From positions 1 through 45,706 of the forward strand of contig JAGGVT010000032.1 in the NCBI GenBank assembly GCA_021157815.1: a DNA stretch of 45,706 nt. The letters run 5' to 3'. Positions 38,548 through 44,863 of the stretch are shown here, in pieces; position 1 is the stretch's first letter, and the number at the start of each line of letters is the position of its first letter. The stretch is from a bacterium (lineage in GTDB: Bacteria > JAJVIF01 > JAGGVT01). Position numbers and translations under genes: made by a program. The notes below the pieces were generated by a model. The model was not told where the DNA came from. It did no database searches and saw only the letters and a program-made list of their open reading frames with translations.

Positions 38548-39465
38548 ATGCGGGAATCTGACACAAGAACATATCTGGATTATGCCGCGAGCACTCCTTT
38601 GCGCGATGAGGTTCGAGACGCGATGCTGCCGTACCTGAGCGAGCATTTTGGCAATCCCAGTTCCATACATTCTTTCGGCAGGAATCTGAGAGTGCGAATT
38701 GACCAGTGCAGGGATCAGATTAAAAAAGTTCTTAATTGCTCTTATCACGAAATCATTTTCATAAGCGGGGCAACGGAAGGCGATAACTGGGCAATTAAGA
38801 ATCTGGCTCGAACATACCGGAAAAAAGGCAGGCATTTTATTATCAGCGCGATAGAACATCACACAGTTATCGAGTCGGCTGAATTTATGGTTAAGGAGGG
38901 TTTTAAATGTTCAATTGTCAATCCGGCATCGGATGGCGTGGTCAGAATTGAGGATATTGAAGCGGTTATCAGGCCTGACACAACTTTCATCAGTTTGATG
39001 TTAGTAAACAACGAGCTTGGCACGGTGCAGCCGGTTACACATGTCGCGAAACTGGCAAAAGCTGTCGAACTTGCAGGTTTGGAGCGGGAGAGCATGGTTG
39101 AGAAATACAACGGGCTGGGCAGGTATATGCTTGGCAAACTGGCGGATTAAACGCCCGATGTTCAGCTTGTTGGCAATCAGGACAAAAAAGCGCCGCATAT
39201 ATACTGCCTGCGTGTTCCGGGAATTCCTTCTGAGAATTTGCTTATTGGCTTCGATATGGCTAACATTGCTCTGGCAACCGGAAGCGCATGCGCAAGCGGG
39301 TCAGCTGAACCGAGCCATGTTATGAAAGCTATCGGATACGGTTTGCCTGAAGCGTTTGAAACAATCCGAGTCAGTTTCGGAATTTATTCGAGTAAAGATG
39401 ATATTGACAAATTTATTGAAGTTCTTAAGAGAATCATCAAATCAGGAGGCGAGATTGATTTATGA
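38548..39465 (+). pseudogene. Broken NifS/IscS-type cysteine desulfurase
   Basis: The N-terminal half is normal: YLDYAASTPLRDEVRDAM, FGNPSSIHSFG, FISGATEGDNWAI, IEHHTVIE, NNELGTVQP. At AKLAKAVELAGLERE the sequence jumps in frame from residue ~195 of the family to ~275, so about 80 residues are missing, including the PLP-lysine (SGHK) and PLP-binding Asp (HVDA) segments. A TAA at 39148-39150 then interrupts the frame, but the C-terminal part follows in the same frame (TPDVQLVGNQ, ATGSACASGSAEPSHVMKAIG with the active-site Cys). It cannot be an active desulfurase. It lies upstream of an IscU-like gene and mnmA. Confidence 0.88.
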
Positions 39466-39923
39466 ACGAAGAAAAGACAATTGAACCCAAACCGGATGAA
39501 TCCGCTGAAGCCAAACCGGAAAAAGAACAGGTGGTTGGTTCCGGCATTGTCGGCAACAGCACAAATCATGACATTGCGATGACCCGCCTGTGGGTTTCAG
39601 GCAACATAATAGAAAACGTGGAGATTCGAATCATTGGGTCTGATTGGACAAAAAAACAGGCGGAACAGCTCACTGAGCAAATCAAGGGCAAAACCGTTCC
39701 TGATGTTGAATTCCTTGTTGATTTCAATCCTGATGATATCCCGGATTTGGAAAGCCTTAATCTGAACATTATTTACGAATCGATAATTAAAGCTTTGGCT
39801 GACCTTCGCAAATCACCTGAAAAACCTGAGCGAGCCGAACCTGTTGGTGAAACACCAATTGCCGAATCACCACCCGTTGAAAATCCACCGGAGGAAAAAC
39901 CAGTTGGAGAAGAGGGGCAATAA
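39462..39923 (+). CDS. IscU/NifU-like protein lacking all cysteines
   Basis: Residues ~24-117 follow the IscU fold: VVGSGIVGN, HDIAMTRLWVSGNIIENVEIRIIGS, AEQLTEQIKGKTV, then NIIYESIIKALADLRK. Compared with IscU from memory (VGSGMVGAPACGDVMK; IIEDARFKTYGCG; VTEWVKGKS; HCSILAEDAIKAAI), the three cluster-ligand Cys are replaced by Asn, Ser and Asn. The whole 153-residue protein has no Cys. An acidic N-terminal extension and a Pro/Glu-rich tail flank the domain. It cannot hold an Fe-S cluster in the usual way. The start ATGA overlaps the end of the broken desulfurase, with AGGAGG upstream. The homology is inferred by eye. Confidence 0.65.
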   Translation: MNEEKTIEPKPDESAEAKPEKEQVVGSGIVGNSTNHDIAMTRLWVSGNIIENVEIRIIGSDWTKKQAEQLTEQIKGKTVPDVEFLVDFNPDDIPDLESLNLNIIYESIIKALADLRKSPEKPERAEPVGETPIAESPPVENPPEEKPVGEEGQ

Positions 39924-39926
39924 CCG

Positions 39927-40973
39927 ATGTCGAAAACTGTCGGCATCGCGATGTCCGGCGGGATTGACAGTGCCTGCGCCGCAATCCTGTTGAAGGATTC
40001 CGGTTACTCGGTAATTGGATTTACATTTAGCCTCTTTAACGCCGGTTCGAATATTGAAACTAATCCTGACTCCGGGGATGTCGCAAATCAAATCGGGATT
40101 CAGCATCACACAGTCGATTTAACCGACGATTTCAAACAGCTAGTAATTGAACCGTATCGGATTGGGTACTCGCAGGGGATAACACCAAACCCGTGCGCGA
40201 TATGCAATCGCCTGATAAAATGGGGTGTCCTGCGTGATATAATGCTCGAATACGGCTGCGAATATATCGCGACAGGACATTACGCGCGGATTGAAAAACG
40301 TAATGGGAGTTACATCCTGAAGCGCGGCATCGACCATGATAAAGACCAGAGCTATTTCCTCTACTTTCTCAATCAATCCCTGCTTGAAAGAACAATTCTT
40401 CCGCTGGGTGAATATACAAAAGAGGAAGTTCGCAAAATCATTGCTGACAGAAATCTAAATATCGATAACAGGCGTGAAAGCCAGGATTTATGCTTCATTG
40501 GCGGCCAATCAGACCGGGATGCCATATTCGAGGACATGAAAAAAGGCAAGGGGGATATTGTTGACAAATCAGGCAATATCATTGGTGAACATAAAGGCCT
40601 CGAAAACTATACAGTCGGCCAGAGAAAAGGGCTTGATATCGCGCACAGTTCCCGCCTGTACGTTCTTTCAAAAGACGCTCGCGGCAACAAACTGATTGTC
40701 GGTGAAAAGGAGGATTTATTTCAAAGCGCGATGAACGTCCACAGCTTTATTTCTTCGCATCCATTCTGTCCTGAACCGGGATTATCGCCTTTTGAATGCG
40801 AGGTCAAGATTAGATACCGCACTCCCGCGACGAATGCATTATTCATACGACTATCTGAAACAGATGCCTATATTAAATTCGAAAATCCCGTTAGTGGAAT
40901 CGCTCCGGGACAGATAGCTGTTGTTTACGACAACGATGAAGTTATCGGCGGCGGGATTATTTCCCCTGATTGA
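39927..40973 (+). CDS. mnmA: tRNA-specific 2-thiouridylase MnmA
   Basis: MnmA makes the 2-thio group of U34 in tRNA for Lys, Glu and Gln. The 348-residue protein has the PP-loop MSGGIDSACAA, catalytic Cys in NPCAICNRLIKW and the second Cys in ESQDLCFIG, so both sulfur-handling residues are kept, with YTVGQRKGL and the C-terminal barrel (GIAPGQIAVVYD). It starts three bases after the IscU-like gene. Sulfur would normally come from a desulfurase; the adjacent one is broken, so another must supply it. Confidence 0.95.
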   Translation: MSKTVGIAMSGGIDSACAAILLKDSGYSVIGFTFSLFNAGSNIETNPDSGDVANQIGIQHHTVDLTDDFKQLVIEPYRIGYSQGITPNPCAICNRLIKWGVLRDIMLEYGCEYIATGHYARIEKRNGSYILKRGIDHDKDQSYFLYFLNQSLLERTILPLGEYTKEEVRKIIADRNLNIDNRRESQDLCFIGGQSDRDAIFEDMKKGKGDIVDKSGNIIGEHKGLENYTVGQRKGLDIAHSSRLYVLSKDARGNKLIVGEKEDLFQSAMNVHSFISSHPFCPEPGLSPFECEVKIRYRTPATNALFIRLSETDAYIKFENPVSGIAPGQIAVVYDNDEVIGGGIISPD

Positions 40974-42195: not shown

Positions 42196-42244
42196 ATATT
42201 AACAGATGCAGGCAGGATGCCCGCACCACAAGGAGAATCGGATT

Positions 42245-44863
42245 TTGAAGTCAGTCGATTTGCGAAATAAATATTTGGAATTTTTTAAAAAGTACGAGCA
42301 CACGATTATCAAGTCAGCGCCGCTTGTTCCGATTAACGACCCGTCTCTGCTTCTGATAAATGCCGGAATGGCGCCGTTGAAACCGTACTTTCTCGACACG
42401 AAAAGCGCGCCGTCGCCAAGAATGGCGTCTGTCCAGAAATGCCTTCGCACGAAGGATATCGATGATGTCGGCACGACTCCACGACATCTGACCTTTTTCG
42501 AAATGCTGGGAAATTTCTCATTCGGCGATTATTTCAAAGAGGAGATTATTCCGTGGTCGTGGGAGTTTTTAATTGGATGGCTTGAACTGCCTGAGGACAA
42601 ACTGTTTGTAAGCGTCTTTGAAGAAGATGATGAGGCGTACGATATCTGGCATAAAAAGGTCGGACTGCCGGAATCGAAAATATTCAAACTCGGTGAGGCT
42701 GATAATTTCTGGTATATGGCGGATACAGGCCCCTGCGGGCCTGACAGCGAAATTTTCTATGACCTTGGCGAAAAAGTCGGATGCGGCAGGCCAACATGCC
42801 AGCCCGGATGCGACTGCGCACGCTACACTGAAATTTGGAATCTGGTTTTTACGCAGTTTGACCGCCAGGAGGATGGCGAGCTCAAACCGCTTCCCAACAG
42901 GAATGTCGATACGGGAATGGGGCTTGAAAGGACAATCGCCGCTATTGAAGGCAAAGTCAGCGTTTTTGAAATAGATGCTTTCCAGCCGCTGATTTCCTAC
43001 ATACGCAAAAAGGCAGGTCAAAAGGGCAAAAGGGATACAAGCGGGGTTATCGAATTCAATCCCTTTTTCCTCATGGCTGACCATCTGCGGGGAAGCGCGT
43101 TTTTAATCGCGGATGATGTCTATCCCGGCAACGAGGGACGCGGATATATTCTGAGGCGAATAATGCGTCGCGCGTTTTTGCATGCACAGCGCCAGGGATT
43201 GAAAGAGGGTGAATTAATCGCCGGACTGCATTTCATCTATGAGTCGCTTGGTGACGCTTATCCTGAGATAATCGAAAAATCAAAACTCATCGAGAAAATA
43301 CTTTCACGCGAGGAGGAGGGATTTTTGTCAACGCTGTCGCGCGGCGAGGCGTTGCTGGATAAGAAAATAGCGAAACTGGAAAAAACCGGGAATAATGTTC
43401 TCGCCGGTGAAACGGCGTTTGAACTGTATGACACGTACGGTTTCCCGATTGATTTGACACGGGATATCCTTCGCGAGAAAGGTTACAAAGTCGATGAAGA
43501 TAGTTTCAATGCGGAACTCGAAAAGCAGCGTTTGAGGTCTCGCGCGGATACGGCAACAAAACTCAACTCCGCATCCGGTGGACCTGAGGTGGTTATTTCT
43601 GTCGAAAAGCCAACCGAGTTCGTTGGATTTGAAACAACCAGCGCTAAAGCGGAAATCAGGCGGGTTACAACTCTGGACAAACTGGCAATCGTGCTTGATA
43701 AAACGCCATTCTATGCGGAATCCGGCGGCCAGGTCGGCGATGAGGGAATTATTAAAAGCGACTCGTTTGAATTCAATGTAACAAAAACAATAAAAGACCA
43801 GCGCGATGTTTATTATCACATTGGCGAATTTACAAAAGGAAACCCGGAGGTAATTCAGGAGGAAACAGAAATAATCGCGCAGGTAACTGAATCACGGCGA
43901 CGCGGCATCATGCGCTCACACACCGCAACACATCTTATGCATTCAGCGCTTCGGCAGGTGCTTGGTACTCACGTTAAACAGGCGGGTTCGCTTGTCGAGG
44001 ATGACCGCCTTCGATTCGACTTTTCACATTATGAATCTGTCTCGTTCGATAACATTTTGAAAATCACAAAACTGGTTAACAAATGGATTCTTCAGGGATT
44101 TGATATCAGCACTCATATTCAACGGTACAGCGAAGCGGTTAAATCAGGCGCGATGGCGATTTTCGGCGAGAAGTACGGCGATGAGGTCAGGGTGGTTTCA
44201 ATGGGCGATGTCTCAAGCGAATTGTGTGGGGGAACGCATCTGGATAACACGTCGAAAATCGGTTCGTTCGTGATTATCAAGGAGGAATCAATTGCGTCGG
44301 GAACACGGCGTATCGAGGCGCTTACAGGATTAAAAGCGATTGAGTATTTCCTCGATGGCGGAAAAGTCCTGAAAGAACTGTCAAGCAGATTCGCGGTTGG
44401 TTATGACCTGATTGAATCCAACGTGGAAAAACTTTTTGCTGAAAGGAAATCGCTTGAAAAGGAGCTGGACAAAATCCGCGCGAACATGGCTAAATCACAG
44501 GTTGCGGGATTAATCGAACAGGCGGAGAAAGTCGGTAATGTTTCGCTGATAATTCACACTGTTGATAATCTCAATAACGATGCGTTGATGAGCATGGCGG
44601 AGGGATTCAAGGGCAAGGTTGATTCATACGCCGCTCTTCTTATTGGAAAAATGCCGGACAAGCTCGGAGTGGTTATCGCGGTCAGTAACGACATGATGAA
44701 AAAAGGCTTGAAGGCCGGCGATTTGATTAGGGAAATATGCGGAGTTTTGGGTGGAGGCGGGGGAGGGCGTCCGAATATCGCTCAAGGCGGCGGTAAAGAC
44801 GCCGCGAAAATCGATGACGCAATAAATAAATTCAAATCTATAATAAATGAAAAACTAAATTAG
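42245..44863 (+). CDS. alaS: Alanyl-tRNA synthetase
   Basis: The 872-residue enzyme charges tRNA-Ala. It has LRNKYLEFF, NAGMAPLKPYF, the class II motifs around LGNFSFGDYFK and DTGMGLER, the editing-domain HTATHLMHSALRQVLG and CGGTHLDNTSKIG, and a C-terminal C-Ala domain ending in GGGGGGRPNIAQGGG. The start is TTG at 42245 with AGGAG upstream; a longer frame to ATG 42206 begins inside a repeat fragment. It overlaps bioY tail to tail by four bases. Confidence 0.96.
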   Translation: MKSVDLRNKYLEFFKKYEHTIIKSAPLVPINDPSLLLINAGMAPLKPYFLDTKSAPSPRMASVQKCLRTKDIDDVGTTPRHLTFFEMLGNFSFGDYFKEEIIPWSWEFLIGWLELPEDKLFVSVFEEDDEAYDIWHKKVGLPESKIFKLGEADNFWYMADTGPCGPDSEIFYDLGEKVGCGRPTCQPGCDCARYTEIWNLVFTQFDRQEDGELKPLPNRNVDTGMGLERTIAAIEGKVSVFEIDAFQPLISYIRKKAGQKGKRDTSGVIEFNPFFLMADHLRGSAFLIADDVYPGNEGRGYILRRIMRRAFLHAQRQGLKEGELIAGLHFIYESLGDAYPEIIEKSKLIEKILSREEEGFLSTLSRGEALLDKKIAKLEKTGNNVLAGETAFELYDTYGFPIDLTRDILREKGYKVDEDSFNAELEKQRLRSRADTATKLNSASGGPEVVISVEKPTEFVGFETTSAKAEIRRVTTLDKLAIVLDKTPFYAESGGQVGDEGIIKSDSFEFNVTKTIKDQRDVYYHIGEFTKGNPEVIQEETEIIAQVTESRRRGIMRSHTATHLMHSALRQVLGTHVKQAGSLVEDDRLRFDFSHYESVSFDNILKITKLVNKWILQGFDISTHIQRYSEAVKSGAMAIFGEKYGDEVRVVSMGDVSSELCGGTHLDNTSKIGSFVIIKEESIASGTRRIEALTGLKAIEYFLDGGKVLKELSSRFAVGYDLIESNVEKLFAERKSLEKELDKIRANMAKSQVAGLIEQAEKVGNVSLIIHTVDNLNNDALMSMAEGFKGKVDSYAALLIGKMPDKLGVVIAVSNDMMKKGLKAGDLIREICGVLGGGGGGRPNIAQGGGKDAAKIDDAINKFKSIINEKLN

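Follow-up and report, generated by a model that had tools for sequence, protein, structure and literature searches.

Analysis of a 45,706-nt stretch of bacterial DNA (the window; contig JAGGVT010000032.1 of assembly GCA_021157815.1) revealed what appear to be the remains of an old iscS-iscU-mnmA operon, in which iscS/nifS is broken and the place of iscU is taken by an ORF whose product contains no cysteine at all (Table 1). On the explanation that we prefer, and to which we give about even weight, this operon is a redundant copy that is coming apart, and the Cys-free ORF is a former IscU, now either a relic or weakly functional.

Table 1. Location of the features discussed, in window coordinates
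Feature	Position	Strand	Basis or remark
5' part of the broken iscS/nifS (cysteine desulfurase)	38548..39147	+	likely ATG 38548
Junction of the 84-residue in-frame deletion in iscS/nifS	39060..39080 (approximate)	+	alignment with five intact NifS/IscS
In-frame TAA in iscS/nifS	39148..39150	+	sequence
3' part of the broken iscS/nifS, with active-site Cys loop GSACASGS	39151..39465	+	Aminotran_5 E 1.6e-9
Shine-Dalgarno-like AGGAGG of the IscU-like ORF	39444..39449	+	read from sequence
Cys-free IscU-like ORF	39462..39923	+	153 aa; homology, coding-score and model evidence
mnmA (tRNA thiolation), intact	39927..40973	+	NF001138 364.8 bits (cut-off 284); motifs
Permease, 390 aa	41023..42195	+	also adjoins mnmA in same-class genome G002
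alaS-like ORF (alanyl-tRNA synthetase)	42206..44863	+	named from translation; same strand, close spacing

The Cys-free ORF

The ORF starts at the ATG at 39462, which overlaps the TGA of the preceding iscS/nifS frame (ATGA), and stays open to the TAA at 39921-39923, with mnmA beginning 3 nt past the stop codon. The AGGAGG lies 12 nt 5' of the ATG. The product had 0 Cys in 153 aa and a pI of 4.4, and it consisted of an acidic N-tail (residues 1-22), an IscU-like domain (approximately 22-117), and a Pro/Glu-rich C-tail (118-153). The initial annotation had described an intact frame with a ribosome site, a protein entirely free of Cys, acidic and Pro-rich tails, and adjacency to mnmA, and all of these were borne out. 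The coding score of the ORF was the highest among all genes of the window and its synonymous codon use was genome-like, which argues that the gene is genuine, or was so until very recently. An upstream start restoring the N-terminal helix of IscU was considered and is disfavoured by the position of the Shine-Dalgarno sequence and by the ATGA overlap. DNA repeats as the source of the Pro/Glu tail were looked for and none were found, and scans for promoters and terminators gave nothing exceeding chance.

Homology to IscU and predicted fold

With a profile built from 11 canonical IscUs, the IscU-like domain scored 25.3 bits, whereas 20,000 shuffles of the domain did not exceed 9.8 bits. On account of this score and of the operon position, we take the ORF to share common descent with IscU, the homology being weak but not due to chance. 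In the NCBIfam profile search, the ORF matched TIGR01999 (iscU) with E 2.7e-4 and TIGR03419 with E 7e-4, the TIGR01999 score of 21 bits being below the family cut-off of 192.4. The Pfam profile PF01592 (NifU_N) gave E 0.16 and 12.6 bits, below its cut-off of 22. Among PDB sequences, E. coli IscU was matched with E 0.0027, the alignment spanning residues 20-117, and the phage NifU-like family phrog_8429 was matched with E 0.004.

The AlphaFold2 model guided by IscU homologues had a pLDDT of ~70-90 over most of residues 21-117 and below 50 at residues 91-98. For this model IscU was the best fold match in Foldseek (E 1.7e-6 to human ISCU), and VIA aligned 101 residues with H. influenzae IscU (Z 12.5, rmsd 3.0), both comparisons being biased by the alignment that guided the model. 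The model built without an alignment was poor and uninformative (pLDDT 51, no meaningful structural match), so the IscU fold of the Cys-free ORF is supported mainly via the sequence relation. A chance resemblance between IscU and an unrelated alpha/beta protein, which might be suspected from the Pfam value, from the failure of the unguided model to match anything, and from the good model having been guided by IscU sequences, is hardly credible: it conflicts with the shuffling result, with the matches to TIGR01999, TIGR03419, phrog_8429, and PDB IscUs, and with the ORF occupying the exact iscU place of related operons.

Residues lost and kept

Few proteins are known to be as conserved as IscU, whose three Cys are considered indispensable. 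The initial annotation had read the three ligand columns of the ORF as Asn, Ser, and Asn. The loss of all three Cys and the first two replacements (C37 to Asn, C63 to Ser) were confirmed, but the third ligand is replaced by Leu, the claimed Asn being off by one; the residues flanking it, H105 and S107, are both replaced by Asn. VGSGIVG, II(E), TEQIKGK, and the last helix aligned with IscU as claimed. Of the 36 invariant positions that could be aligned with 12 canonical IscUs, the ORF kept 12 and lost 24. The kept positions are G-V-G of VGSGIVG, Asp39, Ile53, Gly62, Glu75, KGK, one Pro, and a further Lys in doubtful N-terminal columns of the alignment, and the invariants lost beside Cys include Gly38, Gly64, His105, and Ser107. 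The substitutions clustered at the cluster site, with core and turn positions retained. Two absences had gone unmentioned in the initial annotation, as had the breakage of the upstream iscS/nifS: the canonical N-terminal helix (YSEKVxDHYxNPRN) is missing, and so is LPPVK, with IPDLE at the corresponding place. LPPVK is the chaperone-binding motif of IscU and is not universal among NifU-type proteins.

Judged by the established chemistry of IscU and sulfur relays, a protein with no Cys can neither hold a cluster as IscU is known to do nor carry persulfide, and because the ligands are lost, assembly or transfer of a [2Fe-2S] cluster is very unlikely. Of the sulfur transfer to MnmA suggested earlier, persulfide relay would be impossible, and the suggestion could mean docking only. 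In common with IscU (TIGR01999) and the NifU N-terminal domain (PF01592), the ORF has VGSGIVG, Asp39, TE-x-x-KGK, and the place between iscS and mnmA, as well as, in the guided model, the core beta-beta-beta-alpha-alpha-alpha topology, but it differs in having no Cys ligands, N-terminal helix, or LPPVK, in scoring far below the cut-offs, and in its charged tails. Since it fails at the cut-offs, the Cys ligands, and LPPVK alike, the ORF, which descends from IscU, should not be classified among the Fe-S scaffolds.

The remains of an iscS-iscU-mnmA operon

The gene upstream of the ORF carries two lesions. Its 5' part (38554-39147, Aminotran_5 E 2.3e-38, NifS E 1.8e-52) retains the equivalents of His104 and Asn155 in the alignment, and the deletion takes out HxDAVQ, the PLP Lys of SxHK, and RRxGTENV, the profile match skipping from position 168 to 275. 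The second lesion is the in-frame TAA. Outside the deletion, 40 of the 63 invariant positions were kept, including those of the active-site Cys loop. The gene has neither the PLP-binding Lys nor the open frame of a cysteine desulfurase and, as read here, is a dead pseudogene. The NifS remnants are also coding-biased, so the coding signal cannot date the loss.

Downstream, the permease, which we take to be of the AI-2E/PerM type, follows mnmA, and the alaS-like ORF ends the operon-like row. The window MnmA has the features expected of this enzyme, with the PP-loop SGGIDS, and belongs to the C-type by its CAIC and later Cys; it is without the CC motif found in 11 of the 13 MnmAs compared, including those of the same class. 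The C-type MnmA of Thermus has been shown to carry a [4Fe-4S] cluster (PMC8584467), and C-type MnmAs without the CC motif have been reported from Campylobacter and Helicobacter (PMC11784392).

The ATGA overlap and the 3-nt gap to mnmA show an old operon. The same order in other lineages, with a three-Cys IscU, also supports the view that the window holds its remains: iscS-iscU-mnmA occurs in two of the genomes searched (G247 and G173), where iscS is intact and IscU has the three Cys, and iscU-mnmA in two others (G127 and G769). Three-Cys relatives at the locus, which had been named as a sign of local decay, were therefore found in the same operon elsewhere but not at the locus within the class; in the three other genomes of the class mnmA has no adjacent iscU, and no match to the Cys-free form was present.

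Other sulfur and Fe-S genes of the genome

A complete NifU of 287 aa is encoded on contig C141 of the same genome. The nifS gene beside it is split over the ends of contigs C141 and C162, which share an exact 127-bp overlap, and when joined it reads intact, with the PLP-lysine segment and the Cys loop present; the split is probably an assembly break in an intact housekeeping gene. With NifU complete and NifS reconstructible, Fe-S assembly is apparently covered elsewhere in the genome, which would make the iscS and iscU copies of the window redundant.

In the same genome a tusA-like gene (G000:C119:3212-3419) is split, carrying both a frameshift and a TGA in frame; this second broken sulfur-relay gene is in line with the preferred explanation. 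The source genome gave no intact TusA above cut-off, and no TusA match was found in the three other genomes from the same class. In B. subtilis, the desulfurase YrvO hands sulfur directly to MnmA (PMC11784392); given this precedent, a direct route from NifS to MnmA without Tus proteins is plausible in the source genome.

Probable order of the losses

Joint decay would have cost both genes equal shares of their invariants. NifS kept 40/63 and the IscU-like ORF 12/36 (Fisher p 0.006; 0.026 without the N-terminal columns), which argues that they did not decay together. Had NifS drifted neutrally to 63% identity, about five stops would be expected, and one was observed. The unequal loss of invariants and the few stops in NifS make it probable that the IscU-like gene was reshaped before NifS broke, at a time when selection still acted on NifS. 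When neutral drift of IscU to the present divergence was simulated, the frame stayed stop-free in 1-5% of cases. These arguments, which are indirect and come from one genome, favour an interval during which a Cys-free IscU stood beside a working NifS.

On the preferred explanation, the ORF would be the former IscU of a redundant iscS-iscU-mnmA copy in a lineage whose Fe-S assembly is run by the separate NifS-NifU pair. Freed from cluster building, it would have lost the N-terminal helix, the three Cys ligands, and the residues of the ligand loops, while keeping the core fold and acquiring charged tails, and the neighbouring iscS/nifS would have been disabled later by the deletion and the stop codon. 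For MnmA, the housekeeping NifS/NifU would most likely be the source of sulfur and, the enzyme being of the C-type, of its cluster. Translation of the IscU-like frame probably continues, coupled to that of mnmA, and any non-catalytic role of the protein would be weak at most. Of all states, the likeliest is a disappearing relic whose frame is possibly held open by this coupling. The suggestion of the initial annotation that there had been a change of role rather than decay was not established, considering the two lesions of iscS/nifS and the presence of NifU and NifS elsewhere. Simple decay in turn has evidence against it, because the coding score, the codon use, and the stop-free survival in 1-5% of simulations are signs of past or present selection, and the gain of tails is unlike what simple decay would predict.

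The lesions of NifS could also be strain-specific or assembly errors, which would count against the preferred explanation. That the deletion and the stop, and perhaps the IscU-like sequence as well, are errors of a draft genome is quite improbable. The genome is in 221 contigs and 91% complete, its housekeeping nifS is split at an assembly break, and its tusA-like gene is frameshifted too, all of which would suit such errors, but two independent lesions in NifS would be needed, and errors cannot yield 24 lost invariants without a stop and with genome-like codon use.

Possible roles of the Cys-free protein

A tentative alternative to a relic is a repurposed adaptor or regulator, in which the Cys-free IscU fold would bind a cysteine desulfurase and/or MnmA. 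The desulfurase would be the housekeeping NifS, formerly the neighbouring one, and the protein, itself holding neither sulfur nor iron, would bias sulfur to tRNA thiolation or cap the desulfurase. The intact, codon-biased, and well-started frame coupled to mnmA is consistent with such a role, as is the low likelihood of stop-free neutral drift to the present divergence; moreover, the IscU-like gene shed its invariants faster than NifS, and the Cys-free form probably coexisted with a working NifS. In E. coli, IscU and TusA compete for IscS and change its activity (PMC11302665), and SufU, an IscU relative, has a role distinct from that of IscU and strongly activates SufS (PMC6006206). The adaptor reading is opposed by the death of the adjacent NifS and by the lack of a second class member among the genomes searched. 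Furthermore, the residues around the three Cys, which in IscU face the desulfurase in known complexes, are the most altered, whereas the fold-core positions are kept. It is unlikely that the ORF encodes a pseudo-scaffold, that is, a Cys-free IscU derivative co-translated with MnmA and acting as a non-catalytic adaptor or brake on the desulfurase, which would steer Fe-S assembly versus tRNA thiolation.

SufE and CsdE have an IscU-like fold without cluster ligands and a desulfurase as partner, as would the ORF, but SufE needs one acceptor Cys, of which the ORF has none, and no SufE profile match appeared for it. The zinc-binding SufU sets an IscU-fold precedent for a non-scaffold role with a desulfurase, but SufU has three Cys and an insertion of 18-21 residues (PMC6006206), and the ORF has neither. 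SufE and SufU are the nearest precedents, and neither fits a Cys-less protein.

Distribution

The ORF was searched against sets of 59, 385, 12, and 395 genomes (the 59 being part of the 385), as well as against genome_contigs. No second Cys-free copy was found in these ~790 genomes, including three others of the same class; since these sets sample a fraction of the diversity known and a query with one sequence finds near relatives only, this absence is not proof. The window itself aside, there were few weak matches, and those read out were ordinary three-Cys IscUs. In the search of the 385 genomes with the PF01592 profile, Cys-free forms cannot show among the matches listed, which were the strongest. 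In genome_contigs and viral_contigs, neither the ORF nor the window MnmA had a close relative, the matches being just distant MnmAs of Phycisphaerae and one other record. The Cys-free form is so far a singleton from one draft genome, and with no second member in any of the genome sets or genome_contigs, the undescribed class proposed in the initial annotation finds no support. No relevant description of a Cys-less IscU was found in the literature searched, which was limited in extent.

Implications

Unless a second lineage or a function comes to light, the Cys-free ORF is best taken as a probable by-product of the loss of the operon, and as a finding from one genome it carries modest weight. 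A frame that was kept while the three Cys were dropped amounts to a natural experiment on further functions of the IscU fold. The window also appears to show the break-up of an Fe-S operon next to a C-type MnmA whose need for a cluster apparently persists, and the case bears on how MnmA is supplied with sulfur once its dedicated desulfurase is lost.
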